Shown in pieces: positions 5,413-13,980 of a DNA stretch of 64,000 bases. Both the position numbers and the translations under genes were made by a program. The number at the start of each line of letters is the position of its first letter. Position 1 is the stretch's first letter. The notes beneath the pieces were generated by a model, which was not told where the DNA came from, made no database searches, and saw only the letters and a list, made by a program, of their open reading frames with translations. The DNA is from Methylocystis parvus OBBP (GTDB lineage: Bacteria; Pseudomonadota; Alphaproteobacteria; Rhizobiales; Beijerinckiaceae). The stretch lies in NCBI RefSeq assembly GCF_027571405.1, contig NZ_CP092968.1, forward strand, positions 3,122,001-3,186,000, given 5' to 3'.

Positions 5413-5683
5413 CCAAAGCTCCCGGTGCATCGCGCGCATCCGGCGACGTGAAGACCGACGCTGGATGCGAAGACGTTTGCACGCGTAAAGCAATCCGTCC
5501 ATGCGATCCAGGCGGCGCAATTGCGTCCCTCGGCCCCCTGGGGCGCGACGAGCGGCGCCGGTCGACGCGCCCATGACAGCAGGCGCTCGGCGCGCGTCCT
5601 TTCGTCGCATCACGCCCCTCCGATGCGCGCTTGACGCGTCGCATCGGCCCAACCTAGCCTTGAAGCGGAACCCAGAGGCGGCG

Positions 5684-6091
5684 GTGGATCCAAATTCGAA
5701 GAGACAGAGCGTTCTCGCGCGACTGACGGCGATCGCGATCGCATGCCTTCTGTTTTTGCAGATGGCGGTCGCCGGCGCCGCGGCGCTCGCGGCCGAATCC
5801 GGTTCCGGCGCCGTGAATGGCGCGATCTGCCTGACGCAAGGCGGGGCCGGCGCGGTCGATAGGACGAACCCGTCCCATGACGGGCATCGTCACGGCCTCT
5901 GTTGCATCCTGCACGGCGTCGCCCTCGGCGCTCCTCAGGCGAATCGATTCTCCTCTGTCGCGCTTCTTCCGCCGCCGACGGGCGATTTCGTCCGGTCGGC
6001 GATTGACGACGCTCCCATGCGCCGCGCGGAGCCCAAAGGCGATCCGCAATCGCCGCGCCCGCCTCCAGCAGACGTTTCCGCTCTTTCCTGA
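5684..6091 (+). CDS. DUF2946-type Cys/His-rich secreted or membrane-anchored small protein
   Basis: A 135-residue protein starting with GTG at 5684, preceded by an AGAGG ribosome site. Residues ~10-38 form a signal peptide or membrane anchor (LTAIAIACLLFLQMAVAGAA). The rest should face the periplasm and has an IC followed ~20 residues later by SHDGHRHGLCCILHG, dense in His and paired Cys. This layout resembles DUF2946 proteins, often found near copper genes. The C-terminal third is Pro/Arg-rich and low in structure. It is 223 bp upstream of an orphan pmoC on the same strand, so a metal (copper) role is plausible but unproven. An upstream extension to 5501 is rejected as Arg-rich and without a ribosome site. 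Confidence 0.6.
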   Translation: MDPNSKRQSVLARLTAIAIACLLFLQMAVAGAAALAAESGSGAVNGAICLTQGGAGAVDRTNPSHDGHRHGLCCILHGVALGAPQANRFSSVALLPPPTGDFVRSAIDDAPMRRAEPKGDPQSPRPPPADVSALS

Positions 6092-6314
6092 CAGCGCCTC
6101 GCCGCCGCCGGTCCTTTCGGTCCAGTTGCGCAAGGCGACGGTCGGATGACGCCGCGGCTGTGGAGCGCCGCGCCGCTCGAGCGTTGCCGAGCGTCTCTTC
6201 CCGCAATCCTTCGCGAAAGCGATGCGGCTCGTCCGTGCGGTTGGCGTCGTCCCTTCCGAAAGAAGCAGTGTGGGCAATTTTTCCCGCGCGCGAACCGGCT
6301 TCTGGAGATTCATC

Positions 6315-7088
6315 ATGAGCATGACAAAAACCGGCGCCGCGGGCGCCGCGAAAGGCGCCGAGCGGATATTGGATCGCAAACCCCTGCTCGTCGGCGTTTT
6401 GGCGCTGACAGGCTTCGTCGCCTTCTTGCGTTTCTACGAACAGCTATTTGGCTGGAGCGCGGGGCTTGACTCGTTTTCGCCCGAATATCAGATCTATTGG
6501 CTCAATCTGCTCAAAGCGGCCATCGCCCTCGCTTTCGCCGGCGCGGGCGGACTCTTCGGCTATCTCTGGCGCACGCGCGACCGCAAACTGGCCGCGCTCT
6601 CGCCCACGGACGAGATGCGCCGGCTTCTCTATCTCATTCAGTGGCTCGTCATTTTCGCGCTTGCGCTGTTTTGGGGCCTGAGCTTTTTCACGGAGCAGAC
6701 CGCGGTCTGGCACATGACCGCCGTTCGCGACACGGATTTCACCCCAAGCAACATCGTCACCTTTTACGCGTCATATCCGCTTTTCGCGATTATCGGGGCC
6801 GGCGCCTTCCTTTACGCGAAGACGCGCCTGCCTCTCTTCGCCAATGGCTACTCGTTGGCTTTCCTCGTCCTTGTCGTAGGCTTGTTCATGACCATCCCGA
6901 ATGTGGGCTTCAATGAATGGGGTCATACATCGTGGTCGATGGATGAGGGCTTCGCGGGTCCGCTGCATTGGGGCTTCGTCTTCTTCGGATGGATGTCGCT
7001 TGGGGTCTTCGGCGTCGTGCTGCTGATCCTCGGCCGGCTGCGGGCGCTTCTCGGCCCTGAACTCGTCGCAGCGTTCGCCGGCCGCTGA
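6315..7088 (+). CDS. pmoC: orphan particulate methane monooxygenase subunit C (PmoC), divergent
   Basis: A 257-residue inner-membrane protein of the PmoC/AmoC family (usual ~255). Family signatures are GLDSFSPEYQIYW, WGLSFFTEQ, RDTDFTPS, and FNEWGHTSWSMDE followed by GPLHWGFVFFGW. Start ATG 6315 follows a GGAG site; an upstream in-frame extension to 6222 is not PmoC-like. No pmoA or pmoB is adjacent; orphan pmoC genes are known in methanotrophs. By the family alignment, the CuC-site Asp and second His (M. capsulatus D156, H173) are Thr129 and Asn146 here, while the first His (H160) is kept as His133. The CuD ligands (N227, H231, H245) are all present as Asn200, His204, His218. It may assemble into a pMMO variant or have another role. 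Confidence 0.93.
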   Translation: MSMTKTGAAGAAKGAERILDRKPLLVGVLALTGFVAFLRFYEQLFGWSAGLDSFSPEYQIYWLNLLKAAIALAFAGAGGLFGYLWRTRDRKLAALSPTDEMRRLLYLIQWLVIFALALFWGLSFFTEQTAVWHMTAVRDTDFTPSNIVTFYASYPLFAIIGAGAFLYAKTRLPLFANGYSLAFLVLVVGLFMTIPNVGFNEWGHTSWSMDEGFAGPLHWGFVFFGWMSLGVFGVVLLILGRLRALLGPELVAAFAGR

Positions 7089-7279
7089 CCAGGATTGGCG
7101 ACGCGCGACCAACCCCCGCGCGTCGTCCGGCCGGCGCCCACCCCTCCCTCTCTGGGCGCCGGCCATTCTCTCTCGCGCCGGAACGCGTCCGCCAACCTGA
7201 TTTCGCAGGCGGGTCCCGGCTGCAAAACCGCTTCGCGCGCTTGCTTGCTCCAGCGCGTGGGGGACCCCCAGCAACTTCT

Positions 7280-7311
7280 CCCCGTTCGAGATTTCTCGGA
7301 CGGGGCTTTTC
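7280..7311 (+). terminator. intrinsic terminator downstream of pmoC
   Basis: CCCCGTTCGAG, loop ATTT, CTCGGACGGGG forms an 11-bp stem with one G-T wobble, followed by CTTTTC. It is ~190 bp after the pmoC stop and just before a small ORF, so it probably ends the pmoC transcript. The T-run is short. Confidence 0.6.
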
Positions 7312-7739: not shown

Positions 7740-9449
7740 ATGCCAGTGAGATTCGACATTCGCGATTCCGTCCGTGTTTTTTTGAGCGCCTCGCCTCCCG
7801 AGATGGCGCGCGAGGCGACTGTCCGCAGCCCCGTGGCAGGCGTGGGACGGTTCAGTCGGAGAGACGCGCTGAGAGGCTTTCTCGGCGTCGCCGGCGCATC
7901 CCTGGCGGGATGCATGACGGGACCGGATTTTACCCCGCCCGTCGCCCCCGTCGCCGACAAATGGCTGGAATGGCGCAGCAAGAGCCTGAAATCCGCGGAG
8001 ACGCCGGCCGATTGGTGGCGCCTCTTCCGCGATCCGGTTCTCAATCGGCTGATTGAAACCGCTTACTCCCAGAACCTCACTCTGCTGAGCGCGGGGACGA
8101 AGGTCCTGGAGGCCCGCGCGGAGCTCGGGGTCGCCATCGGCGAGTTCTATCCACAGATGCAGACCGCCTCCGCCGCGGTGAATTACGACCGCGCGAGCAA
8201 TGCGACGCCGGCGTCCCAGGGCGGCAACTCCATGGCGCTCGGCAATTTCTGGGCGGACCGATGGCTCGTGCAATCGTCCTGGGAAATCGACCTCTGGGGC
8301 AAATTCCGGCGCGGAATCGAATCGGCGGACGCCGCTTATCTCGGGTCGATCGCGTCCTATGACGACGTGCTCGTGACGCTGCTTTCGGATGTCGCGAGCG
8401 CCTATATCGGCATCCGCACGCTCGAGCGTCAGATCGCCATTGCGCGCGCCAATGTCGCGCGGCAGCGCGAATCTGTGCGAATTGCGAGGACGCGCTTCGA
8501 GGGCGGCGCCTCGACGCTTCTGGACGTGCATCAGGCCCAGAACGTGCTCGCCTCGACCGAGGCGACGATCCCGCGGCTGATGATTCAGCTCAAGCACGGA
8601 ATGAACGCGCTGCGCGTCCTCCTTGGAATGGCTCCGGAGCCGCTCGGTTTCCTGCTCGCGCGCGGCGCGGCGAAAATTCCGTTCGCCCCTCCGCGCGCGG
8701 CCGTCGGCATTCCCGCCGACCTTCTGCGCCGGCGGCCCGACATACGCGTCGCGGAGCTGCGCGCAGCGGCGCAAAGCGCGCAGATCGGCGTCGCGCAGGC
8801 GGAGCTCTATCCGGCGATCAGCATCAGTGGGGCCTTTGGCGGCCAGGCCAGCAATGTCGGCCACAATCTGGGGCAGATGGTTCAGCCGATGGGTCGCGCA
8901 TTCGCGATCGGCCCATCCTTTAAATGGAACCTTCTGAACTACGGCCAGATTGCGAATAACGTCCGCCTGCAGGACGCGACGCTGCAGCAATATCTGATCG
9001 ACTATCAGAATCAGGTCCTGAAAGCGCAGCAGGAAGTCGAGAACGGCGTCGCGACCTATCTCCTTTCTGCGTCCGAGGCCGCCTATCTGCGCAAGAGCGT
9101 GACGGAGGCCAAGGGCGCCCTGGAGATCGCGACGCTCGAATATCAGCAGGGCACGCGCGACTTCACGACAGTGCTCACCGCTGAGCAGAACCTTCTGGCG
9201 GCGGAAAACAGCCTTGCGACGGCGACGGGAAATATCTCGATCGGCCTCGTTTCGCTCTATAGGGCGCTGGGCGGCGGCTGGCAGATTCGGGAGGGCAAGC
9301 CCTTCGTCGACGCCGCGACCGTGCAGGAAATGCGCGATCGGACGAATTGGGGAAATCTCCTGCCCGACGCCGCGCAGCCCGGATTCGAAACGCCGGGCCT
9401 GCCATCCGCGCAGGACGTCGATTCGAGCATCAAACTACCCGAATGGTAA
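7740..9449 (+). CDS. RND efflux outer-membrane factor (TolC/NodT family lipoprotein)
   Basis: A 569-residue outer-membrane channel of the NodT/OprM type. A signal region contains FSRRDALRGFLGVAGASLAGC, which combines a twin-arginine-like motif with a lipobox (LAGC). The mature part opens with MTGPDFTPPVAP, usual for this family. The two OEP repeats are visible; the first contains LEARAELGVAIGEFYPQM and the second LRAAAQSAQIGVAQAELYPA. The start is unclear: ATG 7740 is the longest, ATG 7803 (MAREATV) is also possible; neither has a strong ribosome site. It is first in an operon with an adaptor and an RND pump. Substrate cannot be read from sequence. Confidence 0.9.
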   Translation: MPVRFDIRDSVRVFLSASPPEMAREATVRSPVAGVGRFSRRDALRGFLGVAGASLAGCMTGPDFTPPVAPVADKWLEWRSKSLKSAETPADWWRLFRDPVLNRLIETAYSQNLTLLSAGTKVLEARAELGVAIGEFYPQMQTASAAVNYDRASNATPASQGGNSMALGNFWADRWLVQSSWEIDLWGKFRRGIESADAAYLGSIASYDDVLVTLLSDVASAYIGIRTLERQIAIARANVARQRESVRIARTRFEGGASTLLDVHQAQNVLASTEATIPRLMIQLKHGMNALRVLLGMAPEPLGFLLARGAAKIPFAPPRAAVGIPADLLRRRPDIRVAELRAAAQSAQIGVAQAELYPAISISGAFGGQASNVGHNLGQMVQPMGRAFAIGPSFKWNLLNYGQIANNVRLQDATLQQYLIDYQNQVLKAQQEVENGVATYLLSASEAAYLRKSVTEAKGALEIATLEYQQGTRDFTTVLTAEQNLLAAENSLATATGNISIGLVSLYRALGGGWQIREGKPFVDAATVQEMRDRTNWGNLLPDAAQPGFETPGLPSAQDVDSSIKLPEW

Positions 9450-9493
9450 GGCGAGGGAGCGCTGCCGGCTCATGAGCAAGAAGGCGTCGTGAC

Positions 9494-10759
9494 ATGTGGA
9501 AGGGACTCCTTTCTTTGACGCTCCCGTCCTGCGCGCGCGGCGCGGCGGTTCTCGCCTGCGTCATGGCGTTTCCAGAGGCGAGCCTCGCCGAATCTTTCCT
9601 TGGAAAGCTTTTCGGCGGCAGGGAAGCGGCGACAGCTACGGCCGCGGAAAAGAGTCTCGCCGACGGCGGTCGGAAAAGCCCGGCGTCGGCAGACCCAGCC
9701 CTTCCCGTCATTCCCGTGGCGTCGCCGATCCGGCAGAAAGTCACCGAATATATCGAACTCACGGGCAACGCCTCGCCGACCAACATCGTCAACCTGATCG
9801 CGCGCGTCGAGGGCTATCTCACCAAGATCCACTTCCAGGATGGGCAGATCGTCAAAAAGGGCGATCTGCTGTTCACGATTCAGCAGGATCAATACAGGTC
9901 CCAGCTCATTCAGGCCGAGGCGCAGGTGCGCGCGCAGGAAGCCGCGCTCGCTTATGCGCGGATTGAGGTCGAGCGCTATACCGGACTTCGCCGCAAGGGC
10001 GCCGCCGCGCAGGTCATCGTCGACAACTGGAATTTCCAGGCGAAAAAGTCCGAAGCCGAACTCGCCTCCGCGAAGGCGCAGGTCGAGATCGCCAGGCTCA
10101 ATCTCGATTACACGCAGGTGCGCGCGCCCTTCGACGGCCAGATGGGCAAGCACCAGATCGATCCGGGAAACACGGTCGGCGGCATGGGGCAGCCCACCGT
10201 CCTCGCGGAGATCATTCAGCTCGATCCCATTTATGTCGTCGCGAATCTGAGCGAACAGGAGGTGCAGAGAGTTCGAAAGGCGCTTGGCGACCGGCGTGTC
10301 ACGCTCGCCGAAATCCACGATTATCCGGTCGATGTCGGGCTCGAGGCGGGGCAGGATTATCCCTTGCACGGCCACATCCAATATGTGGCGCCGGCGATCG
10401 ACCCCAAAACCGGCACGATGCTGGTGCGCGGAATTCTGCAGAACGCCGATCATCGTTTGCTTCCGGGCTTCTTCGTCCGCATTCGGCTGCCCGCCGGAAA
10501 AGTCATTCCGAACGCGCTGCTCGTTCCCAATCGCTCGGTTCAGACCGATCAGGGCGGGCGCTATGTCGTCGTCGCAAACAAGGACGACCTTCTCGAGAAG
10601 CGCTATGTCGACATGGGCGATCTGCAGGGCGAGATGCGCGTCATTCTTTCCGGCCTCACGCCTGACGATCGGGTCGTGGTCGCCGATCTTTGGCGCGCGA
10701 CGCCGGGGCTCAAGATCACGCCGCGTCTGGCGGGCGACGGCGAGGACGCCCGGCCATGA
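9494..10759 (+). CDS. RND efflux periplasmic adaptor (membrane fusion protein, AcrA/MexA type)
   Basis: A 421-residue adaptor with an N-terminal signal segment (ARGAAVLACVMAFPEASLAES). The lipoyl half-motif is ARVEGYLTKIHFQDGQIVKKGDLLF, broken by a helical hairpin (QLIQAEAQVRAQEAALAYARIEVERY), then the second half-motif LDYTQVRAPFDGQMGKHQIDPG. A beta-barrel region (PIYVVANLSEQEVQ) and a membrane-proximal domain follow. It would link the inner-membrane RND pump to the outer-membrane channel. Its stop overlaps the pump start by 4 nt (ATGA at 10756). Confidence 0.93.
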   Translation: MWKGLLSLTLPSCARGAAVLACVMAFPEASLAESFLGKLFGGREAATATAAEKSLADGGRKSPASADPALPVIPVASPIRQKVTEYIELTGNASPTNIVNLIARVEGYLTKIHFQDGQIVKKGDLLFTIQQDQYRSQLIQAEAQVRAQEAALAYARIEVERYTGLRRKGAAAQVIVDNWNFQAKKSEAELASAKAQVEIARLNLDYTQVRAPFDGQMGKHQIDPGNTVGGMGQPTVLAEIIQLDPIYVVANLSEQEVQRVRKALGDRRVTLAEIHDYPVDVGLEAGQDYPLHGHIQYVAPAIDPKTGTMLVRGILQNADHRLLPGFFVRIRLPAGKVIPNALLVPNRSVQTDQGGRYVVVANKDDLLEKRYVDMGDLQGEMRVILSGLTPDDRVVVADLWRATPGLKITPRLAGDGEDARP

Positions 10760-13700
10760 TGTCGAAATTCTTCATCGAGCGGCCGGTACTCGCCAATGTC
10801 ATCGCCATTCTTCTGGTGGTCATTGGCGGCGTCGCGCTCTTCAACCTGCCGATTTCGCAATATCCAAACATCGTGCCCCCGACCGTTCAGGTCACGGCGC
10901 GCTATCCCGGCGCGAGCCCGCAGACGGTGATCGATACGGTCGCGCTGCCCATCGAGTTGCAGGTCAACGGCGTCGACGGCATGCTTTATATGCAGTCGAC
11001 GAGCGCCTCGGACGGAACCTACGCGCTGACAGTGACTTTCAAGATCGGAATGGATCCGGACACCGCGCAGGTATTGGTTCAAAATCGCGTCTCCAACGCC
11101 CTCGCCTCGCTTCCAGCGGCGGTTCAGGCGCAGGGCGTCTCGGTCAACAAAAAATCGACCGCGATACTGCAGATCATTACGCTGACGGCGCCCAACGGAA
11201 CGCATGACGCGATCTTCCTCAGCAATTACGCGACCATCAATCTCGTCAACGAGCTTTCGCGCCTGCCGGGCGTCGGCAACGTCAATGTCTTCGGCTCCGG
11301 CAAATACGCCATGCGCGTCTGGATGGATCCCGAAAAGCTGCACGCTTTCGGGCTGCAGCCGTCCGATGTCGTGAAGGCGATCCAGCAGCAGAGCCAGATC
11401 GTCGCCTCCGGCCAGACCGGCATGCCTCCGGCGCCGGGCTCTCAGGATTTCCAATATACGATCGACATTCAGTCGCGCCTCGACGACCCTTCCGAATTCG
11501 CCAATATCATCGTCAAGGCGCAGACGGCGCAGGGCGGCCGGCTCGTCCGCGTGAAGGACATTGGCCGCATCGAGCTGGGATCGCAAAATTACTCCCAGCA
11601 AACCTTTGTCGACGGAAAGCCGGCGGCGCTCATCGCGATCTATCAGACGCCCGACGCCAATTCGATCCAGGTCGGCAAGGAAGTCGGCGCCAAGATGGAG
11701 GAGCTCTCGCGCCGTTTTCCCTCTGATCTCGTCTATGGAATTCCCTACAATACGACGATCTTCGTGAAGGCGTCGATCGACGAAGTCTATCACACGCTCT
11801 ACGAAGCGGGCTTTCTCGTCCTCGTCGTCATTCTCTTCTTTCTGCAAAATTTCCGCGCGACCTTGGTGCCGGCGACGACCGTGCCGATCACTATTATCGG
11901 CGCCTTCGCGGCCATGGCGGGCCTCGGCTATACGGTCAATCTCTCGACGCTGTTCGGCATCGTGCTCGCGATCGGCATCGTCGTCGACGACGCGATCGTC
12001 ATCACCGAAGCCGTCTCGGCGGATATCGAACGCGGCATGTCGAGCCACGACGCCGCGATCAAGGCGATGTCGGAGCTGATGGGTCCGATCATCGGCATCA
12101 CCCTCGTCCTGATGGCCGTGTTTCTTCCCGCGGCCTTCCTTCCCGGCCTGACCGGCAGGATGCTCGCTCAATTTGCGGTGGTTATCGCGGCGACGGCGCT
12201 CATCAGCGCCATCAACGCCGCCACGCTGAAGCCGACTCAATGCGCTCTCTGGCTGCGTCCCGCCGTGCCGCCGGAAGAGCGCAACGCCGTCTATCGCAGC
12301 TTCAACGCAATCTATAATCCGCTGGAAGCCGCCTATACGCGTCTGGTCGAGCGCCTCGTCGAACATAGCCGCCTCGTCGTGATCGCCGGCCTGATCACCT
12401 CGGTGATCGGCGTCATCGGCATTGCGCGTTTGCCGACCGCCTTCATTCCAAATGAGGATCAGGGCTTCGCGATGACCGCCGTTCAGTTGCCCGAGGGCGC
12501 GGCGCTCGGTCGGACGATCAATGTGCTCAAACAGGCGGGAGACATTGCGCTGGCGACCCCGGGGGTGAAAAAAATCATCACCATCGCGGGCATTTCAGTG
12601 CTCGACAACAGCGCGACTCTCGCCAATGCCGGCGTCAATTACGTCATTTTCGACGATTGGGAGGAGCGCGGGAAAAAGAAGGGCGAGGATCTTCTCTCGC
12701 TCGTCATGGGCCTCCAGAAGAAAGTGGAGCAGATCCCGGAGGGCCGCGCCTTCATGCTGGCGCCGCCGCCGATCCAGGGCATCGGCAATGCCGGCGGTTT
12801 CCAGATGCAGCTCGAATTGCTCGGCGGCAGTTTCAGCTATCCGCGCCTCGCGGAAGGCGCCAATGGCGTCGTCGGCGCCGCGCAGGACAGTCCTGTCATG
12901 CAGCGCGTCCTGACGACTTTTCGTGAAGCGGCGCCGCATGTGGAAATGCAAGTCGACCGCGTCCAGGCGGAGACGTTGCGCGTGCCGGTCGGCGACGTCT
13001 TCTCCACGCTGACCTCCTATGTCGGATCGACCTATGTCAACCAATTCGTTAAATTCGGGCTGCCTCTGCAAGTCTATGTGCAGGCCGACTCCCGCTACCG
13101 TCTGCAGCCGGACGATCTGCTGAGCATGTATGTCCGCAGCCAGGACGGCAATATGATCCCGCTCAGCACGCTCGCGCGATTGAAGGAAACGAGCGCGCCG
13201 CCTCTGATCACGCTTTACAATCTTTACCCGTCGGCGACGATCGTCGGTTCGCCCATGCGCGGCTTCAGTTCGGGGCAGGCGATGGGGGAGATGGAGTCTC
13301 TCGCCAAGAAGCGCCTGCCGAACGACATCGCTTTCGAGTGGAGCGCCATCTCCTATCAGGAGAAGATCACCGGCAATCTGCTCTATTGGGCGTTCGGCCT
13401 CTCCGTCCTGCTCGTCTATCTCGTGCTCGCGGGCCAGTACGAAAGCTGGATTCTTCCGCTCGCGGTCATCGCCGCTGTGCCGCTCGCGCTGATCGGCCCG
13501 ATGCTGACGCTGACCGGCCTTGGCGTCGACAATAATCTCTATGTGCAGATCGGCCTCATGCTGCTCATCGCGCTTTCCGCGAAAAACGGCATTCTCATCG
13601 TCGAGGTTGCGCGCGAGCATCGCATATTCGGCGGAAAACCCATCATTGAGGCGGCGATCGACGCCGCTCGGATTCGTTTCCGTCCCATTTTGATGACGTC

Positions 13701-13980
13701 CTTCGCTTTCATTCTTGGCGTCGTGCCGCTCGCCATCGCGACCGGAGCGGGCGCCAATGCGCGCCGCTCGCTCGGGATCAGCGTGCTCACGGGCATGCTT
13801 TCCTCGACCTGTCTCGCCGTTCTCTTCGTTCCGGCCTTTTTCGTCGTATTGCAGCAATTCGACGAAGCCTGGAAGCGGAGGAAGCAAAGCGCCGGAGCGG
13901 CGGGCGCCGGAGCTCCGCCGAGCGCGGCCGAGGCCGAAGCGGTCGGCGGCAGCGTCGTCGCGCCGCCTACCGGCGAATGA
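10756..13980 (+). CDS. RND multidrug efflux pump, HAE1 family (AcrB/MexB-like)
   Basis: A 1074-residue inner-membrane proton antiporter, the usual HAE1 length. It begins MMSKFFIERPVLANVIAIL, the standard first helix. The proton-relay aspartates are in GIVVDDAIVITEAVSA, and the counter-lysine segment is in ALSAKNGILIVEVARE. Twelve membrane helices and two large periplasmic loops are evident. ATG 10756 overlaps the adaptor stop; an extension to 10690 lies within the adaptor gene and is rejected. The C-terminus ends in an Ala/Gly-rich tail. Substrates are probably hydrophobic or amphiphilic drugs, by family. Confidence 0.94.
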   Translation: MMSKFFIERPVLANVIAILLVVIGGVALFNLPISQYPNIVPPTVQVTARYPGASPQTVIDTVALPIELQVNGVDGMLYMQSTSASDGTYALTVTFKIGMDPDTAQVLVQNRVSNALASLPAAVQAQGVSVNKKSTAILQIITLTAPNGTHDAIFLSNYATINLVNELSRLPGVGNVNVFGSGKYAMRVWMDPEKLHAFGLQPSDVVKAIQQQSQIVASGQTGMPPAPGSQDFQYTIDIQSRLDDPSEFANIIVKAQTAQGGRLVRVKDIGRIELGSQNYSQQTFVDGKPAALIAIYQTPDANSIQVGKEVGAKMEELSRRFPSDLVYGIPYNTTIFVKASIDEVYHTLYEAGFLVLVVILFFLQNFRATLVPATTVPITIIGAFAAMAGLGYTVNLSTLFGIVLAIGIVVDDAIVITEAVSADIERGMSSHDAAIKAMSELMGPIIGITLVLMAVFLPAAFLPGLTGRMLAQFAVVIAATALISAINAATLKPTQCALWLRPAVPPEERNAVYRSFNAIYNPLEAAYTRLVERLVEHSRLVVIAGLITSVIGVIGIARLPTAFIPNEDQGFAMTAVQLPEGAALGRTINVLKQAGDIALATPGVKKIITIAGISVLDNSATLANAGVNYVIFDDWEERGKKKGEDLLSLVMGLQKKVEQIPEGRAFMLAPPPIQGIGNAGGFQMQLELLGGSFSYPRLAEGANGVVGAAQDSPVMQRVLTTFREAAPHVEMQVDRVQAETLRVPVGDVFSTLTSYVGSTYVNQFVKFGLPLQVYVQADSRYRLQPDDLLSMYVRSQDGNMIPLSTLARLKETSAPPLITLYNLYPSATIVGSPMRGFSSGQAMGEMESLAKKRLPNDIAFEWSAISYQEKITGNLLYWAFGLSVLLVYLVLAGQYESWILPLAVIAAVPLALIGPMLTLTGLGVDNNLYVQIGLMLLIALSAKNGILIVEVAREHRIFGGKPIIEAAIDAARIRFRPILMTSFAFILGVVPLAIATGAGANARRSLGISVLTGMLSSTCLAVLFVPAFFVVLQQFDEAWKRRKQSAGAAGAGAPPSAAEAEAVGGSVVAPPTGE

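Follow-up and report, generated by a model that had tools for sequence, protein, structure and literature searches.

A Methylocystis clade of orphan PmoC proteins that lacks two CuC ligands, keeps the CuD triad and is paired with a DUF2946-like leader

Which copper site of PmoC is responsible for methane oxidation is an open question. One proposal places the active site at CuD, and none of the structures considered in that study has copper in CuC and CuD at once (PMC12576850). Here we ask what is encoded by a pmoC gene of Methylocystis parvus OBBP that seems to have kept one site and lost the other. The gene lies at positions 6315-7088 of the window, by which we mean the whole 64,000-nucleotide stretch of DNA analysed (contig NZ_CP092968.1, positions 3,122,001 to 3,186,000, forward strand). 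A sequence-only reading had described it as an orphan pmoC without pmoAB, encoding a protein devoid of two CuC ligands and equipped with an intact CuD site, and had called it a natural test of the CuD hypothesis. The gene and its two sites are placed as follows.

6315..7088, + strand: divergent orphan pmoC (open reading frame of 257 aa), CuC ligands T-H-N, CuD ligands N-H-H.
6699..6752, + strand: codons of the remodelled CuC site, by alignment to solved PmoC: Thr129 (6699-6701), His133 (6711-6713) and Asn146 (6750-6752).
6912..6968, + strand: codons of the intact CuD site, by alignment: Asn200 (6912-6914), His204 (6924-6926) and His218 (6966-6968).

The metal region aligns without gaps to that of a solved Methylocystis PmoC, with EQDGxWHMTVIRDTDFTPSH in the latter facing EQTAVWHMTAVRDTDFTPSN in the window protein. 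Residue numbers are those of Rockwell PmoC, in which CuC is bound by Asp129, His133 and His146 (PMC6572826). In this alignment the CuC positions of the window protein hold T129, H133 and N146 instead of Asp, His and His, and the CuD positions hold the expected Asn, His and His as N200, H204 and H218. Both assignments are those first proposed, where the M. capsulatus equivalents had been given as D156/H160/H173 for CuC and N227/H231/H245 for CuD. We refer to the two CuC states as T-H-N and D-H-H, and to the CuD triad as N-H-H.

In other respects the protein is recognizable as PmoC. It scores 306.3 bits with the PF04896 profile, against a cut-off of 26.7; with TIGR03078 it is barely above the cut-off (282.8 against 280.6 bits), and with NF041641 below it (311.4 against 319). 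AmoC is its sole Pfam domain, and among solved proteins phmmer ranks Methylocystis PmoC highest (350 bits). An AF2 model superposes on 7s4m_C with a TM-score of 0.78 by query length (Foldseek, E = 3.6e-18) and has the PmoC fold. The pLDDT of the model is 73.8, falling below 50 at residues 195-217, which form the CuD loop; the model thus confirms the fold of the protein and not its site, and the copper-site geometry drawn from it is unusable.

How far does the T-H-N state extend? Of the 39 genomes of the genus, 37 have PmoC matches. A scan of named genomes returned 79 loci, the close matches (71-77% identity) being labelled Methylocystis, Methylocystaceae or Alphaproteobacteria. The first 116 loci contain 120 PmoC-like ORFs, a count in which the same gene may appear twice: 40 are T-H-N, all of them with N-H-H, 74 are D-H-H/N-H-H and six are fragments without a site. 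Enlarged with phage contigs and a few loci, the set of 187 ORFs divides into 41 cellular T-H-N, 77 cellular D-H-H and 61 phage D-H-H sequences, plus eight fragments. A further 31 ORFs comprise nine T-H-N (refetches, and two fetches of the copy in genome G001), 20 D-H-H/N-H-H and two incomplete ones. We also compared a wider set that reaches remote members at about 30% identity and includes relatives that, by similarity, we take to be PxmC and ammonia monooxygenase-like AmoC. There, every full-length row outside the clade is D-H-H/N-H-H, except two AmoC-like ORFs at 21-23% identity (L227, 1354-1941; L249, 1336-2049), in which the CuC Asp is kept and the CuD triad is not; their alignment is unsure.

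The codon pattern for EQTAVWHMTA, a motif that spans T129 and H133 and leaves out N146, occurs at 26 places in 25 of 397 genomes of the family. All are in the genus of the window (25 of its 39 genomes), and the motif is absent from the other 42 of the 43 family genera sampled. At least one copy was translated from each of the 25 genomes, and every one is T-H-N/N-H-H; PmoC matches left untranslated are covered by the pattern search for the EQTAVWHMTA motif only. An order-level survey with PF04896 gave matches in only five of 397 genomes. T-H-N copies are present in M. rosea SV97, M. silviterrae FS, M. suflitae NLS-7 and Methylocystis sp. B8, and one genome (G027) carries two EQTAVWHMTA pmoC genes (L018 and a second on contig C132), each with the leader described below. 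An early view that G001 is devoid of a T-H-N gene was wrong: the gene was found and translated (L280). At 59% identity to the window copy it is the most distant member; it retains T129, A130, V131, A136, V137, N146, T149, F157, T193, F199 and D210 and departs from the clade elsewhere, for example at residues 35, 69 and 114.

Misalignment of the EQT-AVWH segment and sequencing error, the two artefacts that might have produced such a protein, are rejected by the ungapped alignment and by the same residues in 25 genomes. It had also been suggested that the change would prove isolated if other orphan copies kept D and H. Other orphans do keep them, but the change is not isolated, with 26 occurrences of the motif.

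A tree was built from 22 T-H-N, 58 other cellular and 32 phage sequences (112 rows). In it the T-H-N rows form one group with 100/100 support and a long stem of 2.25; its bootstrap had yet to converge completely, and a long-branch warning was raised. When the trait columns were masked and the G001 copy was included, 23 T-H-N rows separated once more from 25 others (100/99), with the same warning. On the sequences compared, the T-H-N state is fixed in one clade and has a single origin. This supports the earlier view that the two proposed copper sites have been split by evolution, and adds the point it had missed, namely that the split is fixed throughout one clade.

The clade has a median dN/dS of 0.146 (114 of 231 pairs with usable dS), and canonical PmoC groups have medians of 0.119 (91 of 91 pairs) and 0.093 (96 of 105 pairs). 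Such a low value indicates that T-H-N pmoC is maintained by purifying selection. At the residue level, 21 of 234 columns are at least 95% conserved both in the clade (22 sequences) and in alphaproteobacterial PmoC (50 sequences) but differ between the two, the ligands included. Another 57 columns, which include residues 200-204 and 216-226, show no variation in the clade, in alphaproteobacterial PmoC and in seven gammaproteobacterial sequences. Residues that are identical in all 57 PmoC sequences outside the clade in this comparison, W67, R98 and P190 for example, are altered in the T-H-N clade.

The genome of the window holds seven pmoC copies, and the other six are all D-H-H/N-H-H. Three of these (L001, L002 and L004) have pmoA behind them, and the remaining three (L003, L005 and L006) have none in their 3.7-kb loci. 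Four copies of the genome therefore look orphan-like, and among them the window copy alone lacks CuC ligands. The window contains no PmoA-like ORF (phmmer, E up to 0.01), and no pmoA occurs in the examined flanks of 40 clade loci. The description as an orphan without pmoAB is thus right in that no pmoA adjoins the gene, but it is not a lone gene: a DUF2946-like leader stands upstream of it in a conserved pair.

Singleton pmoC genes are well known in this bacterial group (PMC7285482, PMC10171618, PMC6215863). The T-H-N gene shares its stand-alone character with them, with phage pmoC and with AmoC3, the last known here from mentions in papers alone (Berube and Stahl 2012). Unlike it, the orphan pmoC examined (L003, L005, L006 and 61 phage ORFs) keep D-H-H, a state already published for phage PmoC (PMC7674155). 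Orphan status as the cause of ligand loss is rejected, since other orphans and the phage copies keep their ligands.

What could such a PmoC do? It resembles the PmoC of pMMO (PF04896, TIGR03078) in length, fold, CuD triad and the 57 invariant columns. It differs from it by the replacement of two of the three CuC ligands in every member read, by the lack of an adjoining pmoA, by a copper-type leader upstream and by the 21 differing conserved columns. With these ligands lost, the copper of CuC is presumably lost as well. CuD itself may be affected: according to its cryo-EM model, a water adjacent to CuD forms hydrogen bonds with Asp156, Arg165 and His173 (PMC12576850), so that the loss of D156 and H173 also alters the second shell of CuD and may change its chemistry. 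The notion of a natural test of CuD holds in so far as the CuD triad is kept and two CuC ligands are lost, but it is weakened by the altered second shell and by the many other sites that have changed (21 columns). A possibly altered CuD chemistry favours an accessory role over normal catalysis, and from the sequences we lean towards a T-H-N PmoC that is non-catalytic or at most a modified accessory subunit.

It is unlikely, in our estimate, that the protein serves instead as an alternative catalytic subunit, replacing PmoC to give a CuD-only pMMO that, when copper is low, would oxidise methane or some other substrate. Such a role would be in line with the kept fold and the invariant columns (57, including residues 200-204 and 216-226), with the operon pmoA present elsewhere in the genome and with the proposal of CuD as the active site. 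It is opposed by the binding of the CuD second-shell water by Asp156 and His173 and by the change of W67, R98 and P190. Mutagenesis reportedly places an essential metal centre of hydrocarbon monooxygenase in subunit C, to go by the title of Liew 2014, and this title also argues against activity.

The accessory role that we favour receives its context from the DNA upstream of the gene, where the following features were recognized.

5594..5609, + strand: conserved dyad GCGNCGNTTCGNCGCA, window copy GCGTCCTTTCGTCGCA (one mismatch), a possible regulator site by its conservation among loci.
5631..5659, + strand: promoter-like element, -35 TTGAC at 5631-5635 by conservation and a weak -10 CTAGCC at 5654-5659 by reading, with a 17-nt spacer.
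5684..6091, + strand: leader gene, 135 aa, inferred GTG start, DUF2946/CruR-like small protein, from orthologues at clade loci and PF11162.
5900..5914, + strand: metal-motif codons CCILH (C73, C74, H77), from invariance among leaders.
6047..6067, + strand: C-terminal QSPRPPP, putative counterpart of the CruR RAPP arrest motif, from SPR[AP]PP conservation.
6092..6314, + strand: long spacer of 223 nt from leader to pmoC, with the Shine-Dalgarno (SD) sequence GGAGA at 6304-6308, from comparison of 37 loci.

When ten flanking genes of the window were compared with 40 clade loci (flanks of about 1.5 kb at 24 loci and of up to 5 kb at 16), only the ORF directly upstream recurred beyond the own genome. 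Downstream of pmoC, window positions 7740-13980 encode an outer-membrane efflux protein, a HlyD-type adaptor and a large ORF; the genes of this stretch that were tested are absent from the examined flanks of other clade loci.

A leader orthologue lies upstream at 37 of the 40 T-H-N loci, which amounts to 23 distinct proteins. The three loci without it (L030, L051 and L098) are cut by contig ends, as judged from positions for L051 and L098, with L030 being by inference the same gene as L051. The two genomes to which these loci belong do have a leader at a contig end, G016 with the first part of a pmoC behind it (L284) and G031 with no pmoC behind it (L290). The leader profile matches none of the 76 loci that remain of the first 116 (little upstream DNA is present at some of them) and nothing in viral contigs. 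Since the G001 copy, with only 59% identity, has a leader of its own with CCILH and PRGPP, the leader-pmoC pairing looks old. The pairing is one-way: T-H-N pmoC comes with the leader, but similar leaders exist in the genus without pmoC, the strongest with E values of 4e-32 (G003) and 7e-30 (G023), and several have CCxxH and SPRAPP (L282, L283, L285). By eye, leaders of this kind precede other genes in further genomes of the genus (L281, L282, L283, L285, L286, L287 and L294); one of these genes, at L282, is a PepSY-like ORF of 534 aa.

The GTG of the window leader at 5684 stands in a conserved context, and the protein is hydrophobic near its N terminus. In the alignment of 23 leaders, C73, C74, H77 and Q122-S-P-R-x-P-P are invariant. 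All 23 distinct leaders have CCxxH, with CCILH in the window copy, rather than CXXC, and all 23 have SPR[AP]PP; RAPP is the commonest form in the alignment, and the window copy has RPPP. The G001 leader has RGPP. Counted from the His, the gap between His77 and Arg125 is 47 residues in the window leader and 46 at 29 of the 37 loci, close to the 45 residues between CXXC and RAPP in CruR. PF11162 (DUF2946) matches 19 of the 23 leaders at E up to 0.1, with a best value of 8e-8. The window leader has an E value of 0.0054 and 17.9 bits, below the cut-off of 23.7, which is exceeded by the T-H-N pmoC leaders of G002, G006, G007, G011 and G022 and not by those of G025 and G027 (second copy).

This pmoC-linked type of leader occurs once in the own genome. 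It has C-I-L-H where the L194 paralogue has C-I-L-C, and the second Cys of CXXC appears, from this comparison, to be replaced by His in the pmoC-linked leaders. The genome has five DUF2946 matches elsewhere (L192, 922-1296 and 4041-4406; L193, 557-952; L194, 4660-5109; L195, 4772-5197), with RAPP-type ends (one RGPP), none of them beside another pmoC (the nearest at about 12 kb). By eye, one precedes a TonB-receptor-like ORF, one precedes an ExbB-like ORF, and another belongs to a locus in which a 939-aa ORF follows two shorter ones. From their sequences, the five may form a set of copper-responsive leaders.

The 15-nt core of the dyad, GCGNCGNTTCGNCGC, is exact in 18 of 23 distinct loci and has at most one mismatch in 22 of 23, 89-97 nt 5' of the leader start. 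The exact 16-mer occurs in 30 of 197 loci, every one T-H-N. In the window alone, three matches at one mismatch compare with 1.43 expected, which is not significant; with a single window dyad so near chance, the evidence for the dyad is its conservation. All 23 distinct loci have TTGAC, 52-56 nt 5' of the leader GTG, and GCTTGAC is invariant in 22 aligned sequences. Over positions 5500-7300, a strict sigma-70 scan gave no promoter match, and a scan for intrinsic terminators gave one terminator-like match against 2.5 expected. We searched ten genomes for the dyad followed by TTGAC: eight have a match and three have a second place, and the own genome and G003 are without one because their dyads carry one mismatch. 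At the second places (L205-L207) the dyad is accompanied by a TTTGAC box at longer spacing; these spans of 67-70 nt hold no clear gene.

Two known systems offer a model for the leader. CruR of Bordetella pertussis (Bp2923) is a DUF2946 protein with CXXC and RAPP 45 residues apart and a long spacer behind it; copper perceived by the nascent chain leads to arrest relief and Rho-dependent termination, so that the downstream genes are on without copper, and CruR often has TonB receptors for neighbours (PMC9426467). The T-H-N leader is likewise a small protein before another gene, with a Cys-type metal motif, a C-terminal RAPP-like motif at a distance of about 45 residues and a long spacer to the next gene. 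It differs in having CCxxH for CXXC and PmoC as the gene downstream. The spacer measures 148-240 nt in 37 loci, among which little is conserved apart from a strong SD. C exceeds G in the leader (34.2 vs 30.8%), in the spacer (32.1 vs 28.2%) and in pmoC (29.9 vs 28.5%); the rut-like excess is slight.

CutF of Rhodobacter capsulatus is a related case of opposite sign that works through an SD-masking stem-loop (PMC9973294). The T-H-N leader has in common with it a metal motif and a proline-rich end; unlike CutF, T-H-N loci have a long spacer and no detected SD-masking hairpin. The mean unpaired probability of the SD is 0.45, vs 0.44 with shuffled upstream sequence (23 loci), and the value is below that of its own shuffle at 13 of these loci; a hairpin of the CutF mode gives no signal. 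The RAPP-like motif, the long spacer and the unmasked SD make the T-H-N leader fit CruR rather than CutF, and these sequence features lead us to favour, though they do not prove, CruR-like control at T-H-N loci. By the same token, it is quite unlikely that the leader switches PmoC on at high copper and that PmoC acts as a copper sink or tolerance factor, even if CutF-like leaders also end in a proline-rich stretch and increase synthesis of the downstream product in response to copper (PMC9973294).

We propose, by analogy with CruR and with the chances about level, that leader and pmoC form a two-gene copper-responsive unit, in which a CruR-type leader controls an accessory, copper-sparing PmoC made at low copper. 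A nascent-chain sensor, with its CCxxH, its SPR[AP]PP arrest-like motif and its long spacer, would control the synthesis of the divergent PmoC. At low copper, the leading ribosome would stall at the arrest motif of the leader and transcription would continue into pmoC; binding of copper by the nascent chain of the leader would relieve the stall, and the transcript would stop before pmoC. The T-H-N PmoC, with its fold and CuD triad kept, would be unable to form CuC. Under copper limitation it would act as an accessory that either holds or handles copper at CuD or replaces PmoC in PmoAB assemblies.

The anatomy of the leader-pmoC unit, its conservation, single origin, constraint and genomic pairing are all found in the loci compared. 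From them we infer what the leader does and what role T-H-N PmoC has; the sign of the copper response, with pmoC on at low copper, would be that of CruR. The fixation of T129 and N146 with the CuD ligands kept (N-H-H in 40 of 40 T-H-N ORFs) supports a copper-responsive unit. Against it stand a window leader under the Pfam cut-off, PRPPP for PRAPP, an excess of C over G that is no more than slight, and a leader type that is not exclusive to pmoC, and with CCxxH for the CXXC of CruR, copper sensing by the T-H-N leader is not assured. More tentatively, the unit may supply a CuC-less, CuD-only PmoC that, in copper starvation, swaps into PmoAB or by itself holds or delivers copper.

Sensing or regulation has been suggested for lone pmoC copies (PMC10171618, PMC3615186). 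We see a slim chance that T-H-N PmoC binds copper, or methane, to signal the status of pMMO outside catalysis or copper supply, as AmoC is its sole Pfam domain and the leader its only conserved neighbour in the flanks examined. A functionless paralogue in decay, for which one might invoke the long stem branch of the clade and the G031 copy split between two frames (L030, L051), is hardly credible in view of purifying selection (median dN/dS 0.146), the fixed T and N, and the leader motifs, TTGAC box and SD kept in the 23 distinct loci compared.

The open-licence literature, as far as searched, yielded neither a T-H-N PmoC nor a DUF2946 leader ahead of pmoC, and the word "monooxygenase" is absent from the main text of the CruR (PMC9426467) and CutF (PMC9973294) papers. 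A lineage stripped of two CuC ligands with CuD preserved puts natural sequences at hand for testing the metal sites and for complementation. The copper-type leader in turn offers a prediction of when T-H-N PmoC is produced, and through it a subunit of pMMO would come under post-transcriptional control by copper. If the copper-responsive unit is real, a CuC-less, CuD-only PmoC of starvation would mean that the functions of CuC and CuD have been separated in nature. Such a PmoC would also be, as far as the open-licence literature searched shows, the first copper monooxygenase component under a nascent-peptide copper sensor.
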